Shown here: one piece after another, positions 18,641 to 24,639 of the stretch
How the letters are laid out: each line of letters starts with the position of its first letter
How positions within the stretch are numbered: position 1 is the stretch's first letter
Assembly (NCBI GenBank): GCA_017881905.1
Contig: JADGQI010000127.1
Span: forward strand, 1-33,927
Direction: 5' to 3'
DNA from: Chloroflexota bacterium
GTDB taxonomy: Bacteria > Chloroflexota > Limnocylindria > Limnocylindrales > CSP1-4
Length of the DNA: 33,927 nucleotides
Notes under the pieces: generated by a model
Told to the model about the DNA's origin: nothing
Database searches by the model: none
What the model saw: only the letters and a program-made list of their open reading frames with translations
Translations under genes and position numbers: made by a program

Positions 18641-19399
18641 CTAGGTCATCGGCTCAGTGCGGAGGGTCGCCATGGTCGCCGTGAGGTCCAGCCGGCCCTC
18701 GTAGAGCGCGCGTCCGACGATCGCGCCGGCGCAGCCGGTCCGCCTGGCCGCCAGGACGTCCGCGGTCGAGCCGATCCCGCCCGACGCGACGATCCCGGCG
18801 CGACCGAGCGCGACGAGGCCCGCGAGGAGGTCGAGGTCGGGGCCTTCGAGGAGGCCATCACGCTCGATGGCCGTGACGACGAGGGTAGCCACACCCTCAT
18901 CCGTGATGCGAGTCGCCGCATCGATGACGGGGACGCCGCGCGCGCCGGACTGCCAGCCCGAACCGATCGCGAGGCCGTCGCGGACGTCGAGCGCGACGGC
19001 GATCCTCTCCACTCCGTGACGGGCGATCAGTCGCCCGGCGAACCGAGGATCGTCGATGGCAGCGGTGCCGACGACCGCTCGAGCCGCCCCCGTCGCCAGC
19101 ACGGACGCGACGCTCGCCTCGTCACGCAGCCCGCCCCCGACCTGGACGTCCAGTCGCTCCCCCACCGCCTCGACGATGGCCCCGATGACCGCCGCGTGCT
19201 GCCGCGATCCCGAGCGAGCGCCGTCGAGGTCGACGACGTGAAGCCACGTCGCTCCGAGTTCGGCGAACGCGATCGCGACCTCGACGGGAGCGTCGCCGTA
19301 GATCGTCTCGCGATCGAAGTCGCCTTGTCGCAGGCGGACGACCCGCCCCCCGCGGAGGTCGATCGCCGGCAGGAGTGCGAACGGCTTGACGGGTGTCAT
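18641..19399 (-). CDS. hisA: Phosphoribosylformimino-AICAR-phosphate isomerase HisA
   Basis: HisA isomerises ProFAR to PRFAR, the fourth step of histidine synthesis. The 252-aa (beta-alpha)8 barrel begins FALLPAIDLRGGRVVRL, with the catalytic Asp in AIDL. It continues with VDLDGA, QVGGGLRDE, the second acid region VALDVRDG, TAIERDG and SGGIGS, and ends IVGRALYEG. The ATG at 19399 is chosen over an upstream ATG at 19423 because the extra residues are not part of the family and TACAAT lies 6 nt before this ATG, implying a leaderless mRNA. hisA is split from the other his genes and divergent from them, but the shared operator region suggests joint control. It ends 2 nt from the convergent EF-G-like gene. 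Confidence 0.96.
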   Translation of the reverse strand: MTPVKPFALLPAIDLRGGRVVRLRQGDFDRETIYGDAPVEVAIAFAELGATWLHVVDLDGARSGSRQHAAVIGAIVEAVGERLDVQVGGGLRDEASVASVLATGAARAVVGTAAIDDPRFAGRLIARHGVERIAVALDVRDGLAIGSGWQSGARGVPVIDAATRITDEGVATLVVTAIERDGLLEGPDLDLLAGLVALGRAGIVASGGIGSTADVLAARRTGCAGAIVGRALYEGRLDLTATMATLRTEPMT

Positions 19400-19405
19400 G
19401 CTGGT

Positions 19406-19411
19406 ATTGTA
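19406..19411 (-). promoter_or_regulatory. Putative -10 box for hisA
   Basis: TACAAT (5 of 6 to TATAAT) on the minus strand followed by 6 nt and the hisA ATG. It overlaps the first half-site of the four-part operator at 19410-19435, so a bound repressor would block it. Confidence 0.55.
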
Positions 19412-19435
19412 GCGTTTTAGCACGCTAATATGCTA
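19410..19435. promoter_or_regulatory. Four-half-site symmetric operator (HisR/TrpR-like)
   Basis: Four tetramers lie at exact mirror positions: TAGC 19410-19413, TAGC 19418-19421, GCTA 19424-19427 and GCTA 19432-19435. The pattern is TAGC-N4-TAGC-N2-GCTA-N4-GCTA, with 8-bp steps on each arm. Tandem 8-bp-stepped half-sites are the way TrpR-family dimers bind. The adjacent plus-strand gene encodes a TrpR-family protein, and histidine genes lie on both sides. The site covers the hisA -10 box and the likely plus-strand -10 box TAATAT (19426-19431). I infer autoregulation and histidine-responsive repression of both transcripts. Confidence 0.7.
19426..19431 (+). promoter_or_regulatory. Putative -10 box for hisR-hisGCBHFIE
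   Basis: TAATAT on the plus strand inside the symmetric operator. It would give a leader of about 33 nt ending with GGGAGA before the ATG at 19471. No clear -35 element. Confidence 0.35.
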
Positions 19436-19470
19436 GCAGGCACGGAGCAGACGGGAGATCGGGATCCACG

Positions 19471-19809
19471 ATGGCGACCCAGAACAGCTGGCTGAACGAT
19501 GACACGAGAGCGCTCCTCGAGGCGATCGTCGTCCTCGACGATGCCGACGAGGCCGCGGACTTCCTGCGCGACCTGTGCACCCTCGGCGAGCTCCGCGACA
19601 TGAGCCAGCGCTGGGCGGTCGTCCGGCTGCTCGATGCCGGCCTCCACTACGGGGAGATCTCGCGGGAGACCGGCGCCAGCACAGCGACGATCACGCGCAT
19701 CGCCTCGTGGCTGTATCACGGCGAGGGAGGCTACCGCCGGATGCTCGACCGGCTGGCCGAGCGCAGCAAGGCCGGGACCAAACCATACCCGGCCGGCACC
19801 GAACGATGA
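19471..19809 (+). CDS. TrpR-family regulator (YerC/HisR type)
   Basis: This 112-aa protein belongs to the YerC/YecD branch of the TrpR family. It has the helical core LLEAIVVLDDADEAADFLRDL, LGELRDMSQRWAVVRLLDAG, then a helix-turn-helix YGEISRETGASTATITRIASWL ending in the HGEGGYRRM wing-like tail (read in pieces). In Gram-positive bacteria, TrpR-family proteins of this type have been proposed as histidine-responsive repressors (HisR). Here it is the first gene of the his operon, overlaps hisG as ATGA, and sits beside the four-half-site operator. That makes control of his genes the best inference. Start ATG with GGGAGA 12 nt upstream. Confidence 0.9.
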   Translation: MATQNSWLNDDTRALLEAIVVLDDADEAADFLRDLCTLGELRDMSQRWAVVRLLDAGLHYGEISRETGASTATITRIASWLYHGEGGYRRMLDRLAERSKAGTKPYPAGTER

Positions 19810-20666
19810 GGGAGCGGCTGCGGCTGGCGGTCCCGAACAAGGGCCGGCTCGTCGAGCCGACGCTGGCGCTGCTCCACGACGCCGGACTGGTCTTCGAGGA
19901 GCACGACCGCAGCCTCGTGGCGCGTGTCCAGAACTTCGACCTGGACATCCTGTTCGTGCGGACGAACGACGTGATCGAGTTCGTCGGTGACGGCGTGGCG
20001 GACCTGGGTGTCACCGGCATCGACCTGCTTTCGGAGACCGGGTCGGGGCTGCCGATCGTCCGCGAGCTCCGCTACGGTCGCTGCCGGCTCGCGGCGGCCG
20101 TTCCGACCGACTCCCCGATCGCGACGGTCGAAGCGCTCGCCGGGCATCGCGTGGCCACGGCCCACCCGAACACGACCCGGCGGTACTTCGCCGAGCGAGG
20201 CATCGCCGTCGACGTCATCCCGATCTCAGGTGCGGTTGAGGTCGCGCCACGGCTCGGTCTGGCCGAGGCGATCGTGGACCTCGTGTCGACCGGGTCGACC
20301 CTCCAGATGAACGGCCTCCGGCCGATCGGCGACGTCCTCGCGTCACAGGCCATCCTCATCGCCAACCCCGACGCGCAGGTCGAGCGGGCGATCGACCTCG
20401 GGGCGATCGACACGATGCTATCCGCCGTGCTCGCCGCACGCGGTCGGAAGTACCTGATGATGAACGCCCCCGTGACCAAGCTCGACGAGCTGAGCGGGCT
20501 GCTCCCCGGGCTCGAGTCGCCGTCGGTCATCCCGCTCACGCACCAGGGCATGATCGCGATCCACGCGGTGGTCGACGCGGACGCCGTGTGGAGCCTCCTC
20601 CCCCGTCTCAAAGCCGCCGGGGCGTCGGGCATCCTCGTCCTGCCGATCGAGAAGATCGTCGCATGA
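19806..20666 (+). CDS. hisG: ATP phosphoribosyltransferase HisG, long form
   Basis: HisG joins ATP and PRPP in the committed step of histidine synthesis. The 286-aa product starts LRLAVPNKGRL and has the bilobed catalytic domain with GVADLGVTGIDLLSE and the PRPP-binding EAIVDLVSTGSTL. About 75 extra C-terminal residues (PVTKLDELSGLLPGLESPSV onward, in pieces) form the ACT-like regulatory domain. The long form is inhibited by histidine directly and does not need HisZ, and no hisZ is present. The start ATG overlaps the regulator stop as ATGA, which excludes the longer upstream frame. First enzyme gene of the operon. Confidence 0.96.
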   Translation: MRERLRLAVPNKGRLVEPTLALLHDAGLVFEEHDRSLVARVQNFDLDILFVRTNDVIEFVGDGVADLGVTGIDLLSETGSGLPIVRELRYGRCRLAAAVPTDSPIATVEALAGHRVATAHPNTTRRYFAERGIAVDVIPISGAVEVAPRLGLAEAIVDLVSTGSTLQMNGLRPIGDVLASQAILIANPDAQVERAIDLGAIDTMLSAVLAARGRKYLMMNAPVTKLDELSGLLPGLESPSVIPLTHQGMIAIHAVVDADAVWSLLPRLKAAGASGILVLPIEKIVA

Positions 20667-21817
20667 GCCCGACGCCGTTCACGATGAGCGATCCCGTCGC
20701 ACCGACCGGCTACAGCTGGGAGGCGACGAGCGAGCAGGTCGCCGCTCGATACGGCATCCCGGTCGATCGCGTCGTCCGGTTCGACCTCAACACGAGCCCG
20801 ACCCCGCCCGACCTCGCCGCTCGGATCCTCGCGTCCGGCGAGTTCGAGACGAGCCTGTCCGAGTACCCGCCCTCGGACTATCGCCGGCTGACCGAGGCAG
20901 CCGCCGGTCGGTACGGCGTCCCGATCGAGGAGATCCTGGTCGGAGCGGGCGCCGACGAGATCCTCGACATCGTCGCCAAGACGTTCCTTCCGGCCGGCGG
21001 GGCGGCGATCGTCCCGGTCCCGTCGTATGCCATGTACCGCGTCCTGACCGAGCAGCGCGCGGCGCGGCTGATCGCGATCCCCCGCCTCGGGGCCGATGCC
21101 GGATACGCGATCGACGCGGCACGGATCCGGGCCGCGACACCGGAGGCGGATCTCCTCTGGCTGTGCAGCCCGAACAACCCGACGGGGCTGCCGGAGCCCG
21201 ACGGGACCATCGCTTCCCTGCTGGCCGCGATGCTCGACGATGCTACGGCCGATGGTCGCACCGCTCCGGTCGTGGTCCTCGACGAGGCCTACGCCGAGTT
21301 CACCGGTTCGAGCCTCCACCCGCTTCGCGCGAGCTACCCTCGACTCATCGTCGTGCGGACGCTGAGCAAGGCGTATGCCTTGGCCGGCCTTCGCGTCGGT
21401 TTCGCGCTCGCGGCGCGACCGGCGATCGCCGCGATGGAGCCGTATCGCCCGCCCGGCTCGGTCTCCACCGTGTCGGTCACCGTCGCTACGCGTGCGCTCG
21501 AGGACGACGCGATCGTGCGGGATGCGGTCGAACGAGTGGCGTCCGAGCGCGACCGTCTCACGTCGGCGCTCGACCGGGTCGGCTGGCATCCGGGCCCGAG
21601 CCGGACGAACTTCCTGCTGGTGGCGTTCGAGAGCCCGGAGCGAGTCGCGGAGGTCGCCGATGGGCTCCTGCGCCGCGGGCTCGTGCCGCGCACCTTTCCC
21701 GCGACCCACCCACTGGCGGACCACCTGCGGCTGACGGTCCGGTCGACCGACGAGGACGACCGCCTGATCGCGGCGGCTGCCGAGCTCGAAGCCGTACGCG
21801 AGGGGACCTCTCGATGA
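20663..21817 (+). CDS. hisC: Histidinol-phosphate aminotransferase HisC
   Basis: HisC is a PLP enzyme that transaminates imidazole acetol phosphate with glutamate to give histidinol phosphate. The 384-aa product has the fold-type I pattern: LNTSPTPPD near the N-terminus, GAGADEILD, the CSPNNPTG motif, VVLDEAYAEF, the PLP lysine K236 in TLSKAYALAGLRVG, and the C-terminal RTNFLLV and RLTVRSTDED stretches. The ATG overlaps the hisG stop as ATGA; the open frame upstream inside hisG is not used. Aspartate/tyrosine aminotransferase relatives are the alternative, but the operon position makes HisC nearly certain. Confidence 0.95.
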   Translation: MSPTPFTMSDPVAPTGYSWEATSEQVAARYGIPVDRVVRFDLNTSPTPPDLAARILASGEFETSLSEYPPSDYRRLTEAAAGRYGVPIEEILVGAGADEILDIVAKTFLPAGGAAIVPVPSYAMYRVLTEQRAARLIAIPRLGADAGYAIDAARIRAATPEADLLWLCSPNNPTGLPEPDGTIASLLAAMLDDATADGRTAPVVVLDEAYAEFTGSSLHPLRASYPRLIVVRTLSKAYALAGLRVGFALAARPAIAAMEPYRPPGSVSTVSVTVATRALEDDAIVRDAVERVASERDRLTSALDRVGWHPGPSRTNFLLVAFESPERVAEVADGLLRRGLVPRTFPATHPLADHLRLTVRSTDEDDRLIAAAAELEAVREGTSR

Positions 21818-22446
21818 CCACGCCATCCGGGCCTGGCACCACGATCGTGACGGCCAGATCGGGCCGGCGGGTGAGCCTCGATCGCACGACGCGCGAGACG
21901 ACGATCTCCCTGGCGCTCGACCTCGACGGGACCGGTCGATCCGAGATCGCGACCGGGATCGGGTTCTACGATCATCTGCTCGGCTCGCTCGCCCACCACG
22001 GCCTGTTCGATCTCGAGATCCGGGCCACTGGCGATCTCCACGTGGATGAACACCACACCGTCGAGGATGTGGCGCTCGTCCTCGGGTCCGCGTTCGCCGC
22101 GACGCTCGGTGATCGAGCCGGGATCGCCCGGTTCGGCGACGCCCGCGTCCCGATGGACGAGGCCCTGGCCGGCGCCGTCGTCGATATCGGCGGGCGACCC
22201 TACGCCGTGATCGATCTGCCGTTCCGCGGCGAACGCGCCGGGCAGCTCCCGCTCCAGCTCGTCGAACACGCCCTGGAGGCGTTCGCCCGGACGGCCGGGG
22301 CCACCCTTCATGTCTCGGGGGTCGGTCGCAACGACCATCACCTCGCAGAGGCCGCCTTCAAGGCGCTCGGCCGTGCCCTGCGAGCCGCCTGCGCCCCGGA
22401 TCCGCGGCGGACCGGCGTCGCGTCGACGAAGGGCAGTCTCGGGTGA
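21814..22446 (+). CDS. hisB: Imidazoleglycerol-phosphate dehydratase HisB
   Basis: HisB dehydrates imidazoleglycerol phosphate to imidazole acetol phosphate. The 210-aa product is the monofunctional form. It has TGIGFYDHLLGSLAHHG, the metal-binding DEHHTVEDVALVLG, and the second metal motif NDHHLAEAAFKALGRAL near the C-terminus. There is no N-terminal histidinol-phosphatase domain as in enteric HisB. The ATG at 21814 overlaps the hisC stop as ATGA. About 20 residues precede the conserved RTTRETTISL start of the domain. Confidence 0.96.
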   Translation: MTTPSGPGTTIVTARSGRRVSLDRTTRETTISLALDLDGTGRSEIATGIGFYDHLLGSLAHHGLFDLEIRATGDLHVDEHHTVEDVALVLGSAFAATLGDRAGIARFGDARVPMDEALAGAVVDIGGRPYAVIDLPFRGERAGQLPLQLVEHALEAFARTAGATLHVSGVGRNDHHLAEAAFKALGRALRAACAPDPRRTGVASTKGSLG

Positions 22447-23111
22447 CGCCGGCCGTGCGCGTCGCGGTGGTCGACTACGGGGCGGGCAACCTGGTCAGCA
22501 TCGGCCGGGCGCTCGAGTCCGTCGGCGCCGAGGTGACGGTCGCCGGCGATCCCGCCCTGATCGCCCGGGCGGACGCACTCGTCGTTCCCGGGGTCGGCGC
22601 GGCGGCACCGGCGATGGCCCGCCTCGCCCGCCACCGGCTTGTCGACCCGATCCGGGCCTGGATCCTCGACGACCGCCCGTTCCTCGGGATCTGCCTCGGC
22701 CTGCAGCTGCTCTTCGAGGGCAGCGACGAGGACGGAGCCGAGACGCTCGGCGTACTCGCCGGTCGAACCGTCCCGTTGATCGACGCACCGACGCTCCCCC
22801 ACATCGGGTGGAACCAGGTCGAACGACGCAGACCTCACGCGCTGCTCGAGGGCATCCCGGATGGCGCCGACCTATACTTCGTGCACTCGTATGCGGTCGC
22901 GCCGGCGGATGACACGTTGATCGTCGCGGAGACCGCCCACGGCGGTCGGTTCGCCAGCGTGGTCGCCCGAGACCGCCTTGTCGGGGTCCAGTTCCATCCC
23001 GAGCGAAGCGGCCGCGACGGTCTCAGGCTCCTCGCCAACTTCGTCGGGTTGGTGGGCCGTTCGTCGGAACGCTGGCCGGCCGGCACTGTGGCGACGCTGG
23101 GGGCTCGCTGA
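22443..23111 (+). CDS. hisH: Imidazole glycerol phosphate synthase, glutaminase HisH
   Basis: HisH is the class I glutamine amidotransferase that supplies ammonia to HisF. The 222-aa product has [12 protein letters not shown] at the N-terminus, VVPGVGA, the nucleophile C84 in [13 protein letters not shown], the HIGWNQ and YFVHSY blocks, and the triad H185 and E187 in QFHPE. Compared with typical HisH, the usual ...KS after HPE is RS, a mild change. About 20 extra residues follow the last helix. The GTG start overlaps the hisB stop as GTGA, and the stop overlaps hisF as TGATG, consistent with equimolar production of the two subunits. Confidence 0.96.
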
Positions 23112-23890
23112 TGCTCCGGCGGAGGGTGATCCCGTGCCTCGATGTCGCCGACGGGCGCGTGGTCAAGGGCACCCGGTTCGTCGACCTCGTCGATGAGGGC
23201 GATCCGGCGGAGCTCGCCTCGCGTTATGCGGCCGAGGGCGCCGACGAGCTGGTCTTCCTCGACATCACGGCGGCTCCGGAGCGACGCGGGACCCTTCTCG
23301 ACGTGGTCGAGCGCACGGCGCGGGAGGTGTTCATCCCGTTGACCGTCGGAGGTGGGGTCCGCTCGGTCGACGACATGCGAGCGGTCCTCCGCGCCGGAGC
23401 CGACAAGGTCGGGCTCAACACGGCGGCGGTCGCCGACCCGGACCTGATCGCACGTTGCGCTACCCGGTTCGGTCGCCAGGCGGTCGTCGTGGCGATCGAC
23501 GCCAGAGCCCGCGCCCAGGGACCGGGGTGGGAGGTCGTCGTGCGCGGTGGTCGCGACGCGACCGGGATCGACGCCGTCGATTGGGCCGTCCGATCGGCCG
23601 AGCTCGGGGCCGGCGAGCTGCTGGTGACCTCGATCGACCGGGACGGCACCCAGAGCGGGTTCGACACGAGCCTGCTTCGGGCGATCGTCGACCGGGTTCG
23701 GGTCCCGGTCATCGCCTCGGGTGGAGCGGCCGAGCCGTCCGATTTCGTCGACGCCGTCCGCCTCGGCGGCGCTGACGCCGTCCTCGCGGCATCCGTCTTC
23801 CACCGCCGGATCCATGCGATCGGCGACGTCAAGGCGGCGATGGCCGCCGCCGGCCTGCCGGTCCGGATCGCCCGTGAGGCCGTCGCATGA
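23111..23890 (+). CDS. hisF: Imidazole glycerol phosphate synthase, cyclase HisF
   Basis: HisF uses ammonia from HisH to convert PRFAR into imidazole glycerol phosphate and AICAR. The 259-aa (beta-alpha)8 barrel starts [19 protein letters not shown] with the first catalytic Asp in CLDV; the second is in VVVAIDARA. Other family blocks are [41 protein letters not shown] and VIASGGA. It starts at ATG 23111, sharing one base with the hisH stop, and overlaps hisIE as ATGA. Length is normal. Confidence 0.97.
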
Positions 23891-24639
23891 GCGCGCGTAC
23901 CACGGGGCCTGGGCCCGCGGAGGCATTCGACCCCGCCCGGGTCGTCTACGGCCGGCCCGACGGGCTCGTCCCCGGGGTGGTCCAGGACCGCACGGACGGA
24001 CGGGTCCTGATGGTCGCCTACCTCGATGCCGAAGCGCTTGGGGCGACCCTCGCCACGGGACAGGTCCACTTCCACTCGCGCTCCCGCGGGGCTCTCTGGC
24101 GCAAGGGCGAGACGAGCGGGAACGTGCTCGAGCTGCGGTCCATCGCGCTCGACTGCGATGGCGACGCACTGCTCCTGACCGTCGACCCGACCGGCCCGAC
24201 GTGCCATCGGGGGACCCGGAGCTGCTTCGACCCCGAGGGATCGGACGGTTCCGACCCGACGAACCGTGACGACCGGGCCGGTGAGGCCACGCCCGCCAAC
24301 CGCGTCGTCGCCGATCAGGGCTTCGCCTGGCTCGAGACGCTCTGGACGACCATCGTCGCGCGCGTCGAGAGCCGTCCGGCCGACTCCTACACCGCCCGGC
24401 TCCTCGACGGTGGGGTCGATGCCGTGGCCCGAAAGGTGACCGAAGAGGCGACCGAGGTGCTCATCGCCGCCAAGGACGACGCCGCACTCGCCGAGACCGG
24501 TGGCGACCGCCACGCGACCCAGGCCTCCCTGGCCGGGGAGGCGGCGGATCTCCTGTATCACAGCCTCGTCCTGCTGGCCGAGCGGGGACTCGCCCCGCGC
24601 TCGGTGATCGACGCACTGCGCGCCCGCCACACGGCCTGA
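23887..24639 (+). CDS. hisI: Bifunctional phosphoribosyl-AMP cyclohydrolase / -ATP pyrophosphatase HisIE
   Basis: This is a fusion carrying steps two and three of histidine synthesis. The N-terminal HisI part (about 25-120) has [32 protein letters not shown], the metal-binding [10 protein letters not shown] and [12 protein letters not shown] linker (about 120-145) leads to the HisE part, with [45 protein letters not shown] and [18 protein letters not shown]. The ATG overlaps the hisF stop as ATGA. It is the last gene of the operon. tyrS converges from the other side with only 31 nt between the stops and no visible terminator hairpin. Confidence 0.96.

Follow-up and report, generated by a model that had tools for sequence, protein, structure and literature searches.

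What controls histidine synthesis at a locus where hisA diverges from a his operon headed by the gene of a TrpR-related regulator? The locus lies in a 33,927-nucleotide stretch of DNA from an uncultured member of the Chloroflexota (contig JADGQI010000127.1, assembly GCA_017881905.1; this whole stretch is called the window below), and the regulator gene is hisR. Between hisA and hisR stands an inverted repeat (palindrome) of the form TAGC-N4-TAGC-N2-GCTA-N4-GCTA (TAGCGTTTTAGCACGCTAATATGCTA, 26 bp at 19410-19435). The half-sites of TrpR follow each other in steps of 8 bp. As judged from sequence and conservation, the repeat is most probably the operator of HisR, the product of the adjacent gene, with four half-sites in 8-bp steps that would accommodate two or three tandem dimers.

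The pattern was found at the exact position given in a preliminary description of this DNA, and 16 of 16 specified bases fit. The symmetry, described there as perfect, holds for the TAGC/GCTA bases and not for the N4 spacers, which are asymmetric. The repeat also lies in the AT-richest part, as described: of all 50-bp stretches in the window, the one that begins at 19386 is richest in AT, and it takes in the repeat. Split into 8-bp units, positions 19407-19438 read TTGTAGCG TTTTAGCA to the left of the dyad and CGCTAATA TGCTAGCA to its right, the dyad lying between 19422 and 19423. With the base composition of the window, the pattern is expected 1.7e-6 times per window and 1.3e-4 times per genome, values that serve as a guide only, the pattern having been picked post hoc. 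It is the single match at up to two mismatches in the genome (2.58 Mb, 78% complete), where the next-best has three. The sole match of a 36-bp family profile in this genome is likewise 19407-19439 (E 4e-8). This match and the 8-bp periodicity of 87 related upstream regions (see below) are the decisive, independent evidence that the repeat is not a product of chance.

The adjacent gene had been taken for a YerC/HisR-type relative of TrpR, and the profiles agree. Its protein scores 74.6 bits with TIGR02531, above the curated cutoff of 42.2, and 25.7 bits with the TrpR model TIGR01321, below the cutoff of 67.25. It also matches PF01371 and the solved structure PDB 3g1c of Eubacterium eligens (5e-18), a protein designated a HisR in PMC9413887. 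The helix GASTATITR keeps the DNA-contacting residues of TrpR that are named in the same paper. HisR sites have been published as one 20-bp palindrome upstream of the target genes, with the consensus cacTTTAnnnnnnTAAAgtg (PMC9413887); the central 20-mer of the operator agrees with this consensus at 10/14 overall and at 7/8 in the core.

Half-site rows in related genomes

The comparison set consisted of 87 hisR upstream regions from the same family (Ca. Limnocylindrales). hisR was detected in 90 of the 107 genomes of this family; among the 17 without it, 15 were also without hisG and two had hisG at a contig edge. The named records of the family belong to Ca. Limnocylindrales and to other Chloroflexota metagenome-assembled genomes (MAGs), in agreement with the host proposed earlier. 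Rows of TAGC/GCTA-like half-sites were present upstream of hisR in nearly all relatives. In an alignment-free count, identical 4-mers at lag 8 were observed 432 times, where dinucleotide shuffles gave 79.7 (z=40). Harmonics appeared at lag 16 (z=18) and lag 24 (z=7). Runs of at least three consecutive half-sites occurred in 69/87 regions versus 0/1740 shuffles. Among 82 aligned operators, conserved positions reached 16 bp on either side of the dyad, which corresponds to four half-sites, and faded beyond. The half-sites noticed in the window are thus conserved, and their periodicity and runs are compatible with the two or three dimers envisaged for them. The term "four-part" suits the window and the conserved span, not the operator in general, as relatives have 2 to 6 half-sites by the run criterion. 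A separate peak at lag 18 was rejected as an operator signal; it stems from the word TCGA, probably of the hisA coding region.

A single HisR dimer might instead sit on the palindrome of the central 20 bp, and the outer TAGC/GCTA elements would then be promoter hexamers or chance flanks. Published HisR sites have this single form, class-level sister genomes (L199-L203) carry essentially one palindrome, and the left outer half-site of the window coincides with a -10 box. However, the right outer unit is conserved like the left one (T12 0.74, A13 0.90, A16 0.89) and no hisR promoter hexamer lies there. Runs of four to six half-sites were counted in 26/87 regions, and in relatives L005, L007 and L010 the 8-bp registers run on beyond. 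A single dimer is therefore unlikely; it is the conserved outer half-sites and the longer rows of relatives that favour several dimers on the HisR operator.

Promoters, neighbouring genes and a possible mode of repression

The features of the region are listed in Table 1. hisR heads the operon hisR-hisG-hisC-hisB-hisH-hisF-hisIE, in which neighbouring genes overlap by 1-4 bp. A divergent hisA and a downstream hisG were found at 122/123 hisR loci, many of which are the same locus from two collections. From its position the operator could, as had been proposed, serve the two his transcripts as well as the regulator itself.

Table 1. Coordinates of the predicted operator, promoter elements and genes in the window
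Feature	Position	Strand	Basis or remark
HisR operator (predicted)	19407..19438		four 8-bp half-site units; core pattern 19410-19435; sequence, conservation, profile match
Left outer half-site TTGTAGCG (reverse complement CGCTACAA)	19407..19414	-	sequence and conservation; overlaps hisR-operon -10 hexamer
Left inner half-site TTTTAGCA (reverse complement TGCTAAAA)	19415..19422	-	sequence and conservation
Right inner half-site CGCTAATA	19423..19430	+	sequence and conservation
Right outer half-site TGCTAGCA	19431..19438	+	sequence and conservation
-35 hexamer TTGACG, hisR-his operon promoter (putative)	19386..19391	+	conserved pattern in relatives
-10 hexamer TAGCGT, hisR-his operon promoter, inside left half-sites (putative)	19410..19415	+	conserved pattern in relatives
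hisA, divergent	18641..19399	-	ATG 19399; TACAAT box 19411-19406 (-), six nt upstream
hisR (YerC/YecD-family TrpR-related regulator), 112 aa	19471..19809	+	TIGR02531, PF01371, PDB 3g1c
hisG	19806..20666	+	TIGR00070; 4-bp overlap with hisR
hisC	20663..21817	+	best match TIGR01141, 236 bits, below cutoff 276; position
hisB	21814..22446	+	named from translation and position
hisH	22446..23111	+	TIGR01855
hisF	23111..23890	+	TIGR00735
hisIE	23887..24639	+	NF002747 above cutoff

The putative promoter of the hisR operon consists of TTGACG, an 18-bp spacer and TAGCGT. A TTGAC-like hexamer followed after 16-19 bp by TANNNT was present in 39/87 regions versus 0.64 expected from mononucleotide shuffles. 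Relative to the array centre, 22 of the TANNNT elements start at -13 and another 8 at -21 or -29, so that 30 of 41 promoter-like matches are in the 8-bp register. Since the -10 hexamer belongs to the half-site row, a bound dimer would hide the -10 box, a direct route to repression. A consensus promoter scanner reported no promoter in the operator region, because TAGCGT matches TATAAT weakly, and the assignment of the hisR promoter rests on conservation. TAATAT, previously suggested as the box of the regulator operon, is not conserved; what is conserved is TTGAC-N17/18-TANNNT with its -10 element at a left half-site. The TACAAT box assigned to hisA is present in the window, where its position suggests a possibly leaderless transcript, but it is not a general feature: TANNNT was found at 8/56 usable hisA starts. 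In relatives the array centre mostly lies 10-45 bp from the hisA start, so HisR would also cover the predicted hisA promoter region.

From these features we infer HisR binding, the simultaneous presence of dimers, the histidine signal and repression as the outcome. Two or three histidine-bound HisR dimers would lie side by side on the operator, as tandem TrpR does. At the hisR-hisGCBHF-IE operon they would hide the start region together with the -10 element, and at divergent hisA the stretch just upstream; both his transcripts and hisR itself would be shut off. Ruminococcus gnavus HisR binds its TTTAN6TAAA-type site only with histidine, and it is the only HisR for which this co-repressor role was shown (PMC9413887).

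Other explanations and the extent of the predicted regulon

The array could also be the site of another regulator, with HisR acting elsewhere, since outside the TTTA/TAAA core the consensus of the array is unlike that of HisR in Firmicutes. This is very improbable: the core fits HisR at seven of eight positions, the helix of HisR retains the contacts of TrpR noted above, the array adjoins hisR across families and in Acidimicrobiia, and no other conserved array was seen. That the inverted repeat is a hairpin or attenuator in the his leader is hardly credible. The DNA is palindromic and a 35-nt stretch folds at -9.1 kcal/mol, but the z of this fold is only -1.3, and the sequence that follows the predicted start folds no more stably than shuffled sequence (z 0.07). 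Direct repeats conserved in 8-bp steps are no hairpin pattern, and a transcript from the predicted hisR start near the dyad would contain just part of the inverted repeat.

Several observations weigh against a HisR operator for multiple dimers. Besides the published motif of one palindrome only, the variation from two to six half-sites may mean that some relatives bind one dimer only. The 36-bp profile found no second operator in this 78%-complete genome. Neither the profile nor inspection by eye revealed an operator at its hisD (L046, contig C86), where a second site might have been expected; this hisD lies apart from the his operon, divergent from a urocanase-like gene. The profile was equally negative for a hisD-associated operator in L289, L290 and L293. 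In several relatives, however, hisD follows hisR on the same strand at a distance of about 1-1.5 kb and is thus probably within the operon, and given this arrangement the negative result at hisD is not damaging to the HisR-operator reading. Relative G011 has an operon-type hisD plus a second, lower-scoring hisD.

In relatives, the profile matched mainly the hisR locus. Most of the inspected matches elsewhere lay within coding sequence and were rejected as operators; two of them fell in a conserved ...LARYNVKLLGT... coding stretch, taken for carB. Relative G087 (L265-L269; contigs C6, C16, C25 and C56) has five further near-exact copies of CGTGNTAGCACGNTANCGTGCTANCACG, all intergenic, with the 8-bp step of the HisR operator and unrelated flanks. 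They lie near genes resembling mraZ, polA, aconitase, phosphotriesterase-like and LLM-type genes. CGTGNTAGCACGNTANCGTGCTANCACG thus occurs at six places in G087, including the hisR operator, and nowhere in the genome of the window. In G087, then, either the HisR regulon is enlarged or the palindrome is a dispersed one.

Probable HisR operators in other lineages

HisR was detected in 49/400 sampled genomes of the phylum Chloroflexota, three of them only at marginal scores. Within the same class, a sister family carries TGCTTTAGCGTGCTAAAGCA, the published HisR form, and other Chloroflexota families carry GTGTTAGCATATTAACATGTTAAAACG or CATGCTACCATGCTAACATGATAAAGTG, likewise in 8-bp steps. At one Chloroflexota hisR (L229), which follows a transporter-like gene, no operator row was seen. 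Acidimicrobiia and other Actinomycetota MAGs (L175, L177, L187, L190, L193 and L194) encode HisR proteins 55-65% identical, with similar 8-bp rows upstream of the genes; the presence of Limnocylindrales-like HisR and rows in these MAGs hints at horizontal transfer or mis-binning. In the HisR recognition helix, as compared in an alignment and at L199-L228, sister-class HisR with the motif SATISR goes with the canonical TTTA/TAAA operator and TATITR with TANNA half-sites. A specificity switch at the HisR residue matching TrpR Thr83 is possible. Upstream of hisR in Staphylococcus aureus (L232, 3853-3970, a plasmid-collection record), TTAA occurs three times in exact 8-bp steps (ACTTTAATAGATTAATGCGTTAAAATG). 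Given these steps, Firmicutes HisR sites may extend past one palindrome.

HisR control of his genes is already known. Like the HisR (YerC) regulons of Firmicutes, Coriobacteria, Synergistetes and Proteobacteria (PMC9413887), the present system has a TIGR02531 regulator, a core close to the TTTA-N6-TAAA type, and predicted control of the his operon and of the regulator gene. Unlike them, it has two to six half-sites in 8-bp steps with the family consensus YGCTANNA, versus TAAAgtg in the published form, and its operator also faces divergent hisA. The proteobacterial his operons that begin with hisR are similar in layout and have a TrpR-like consensus, TGTAnTArnnnnyTnTTACA; this consensus differs from ours, the site is single, and no divergent hisA is described in the accessible part of PMC9413887. 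Chloroflexota is not among the HisR phyla named there, and neither a multi-half-site HisR operator nor one in Chloroflexota was found in the open-licence papers searched.

Tandem binding has precedents in TrpR, whose dimer pairs bind synthetic operators in tandem (PMC8745587) and which binds as tandem dimers at its E. coli operators (Lawson and Carey 1993, cited in PMC7248756). As in E. coli TrpR, a related helix-turn-helix protein would meet an operator with predicted room for several dimers, with the end product as the presumed co-repressor. The differences are that the protein is HisR by profile, its target is histidine synthesis, and the arrays reach five to six half-sites.

A bolder proposal, which we hold tentatively, is that HisR lays dimer rows of variable length, that array length (two to six half-sites) tunes repression, and that tandem binding is general and has been missed by single-palindrome models. 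The 20-bp HisR motif models may, as a caution, describe just the middle of longer sites. The series of operators with two to six half-sites offers a natural test bed for tandem, cooperative binding in the TrpR family. If the HisR reading is true, Chloroflexota and Acidimicrobiia would join the lineages in which HisR governs the synthesis of histidine.
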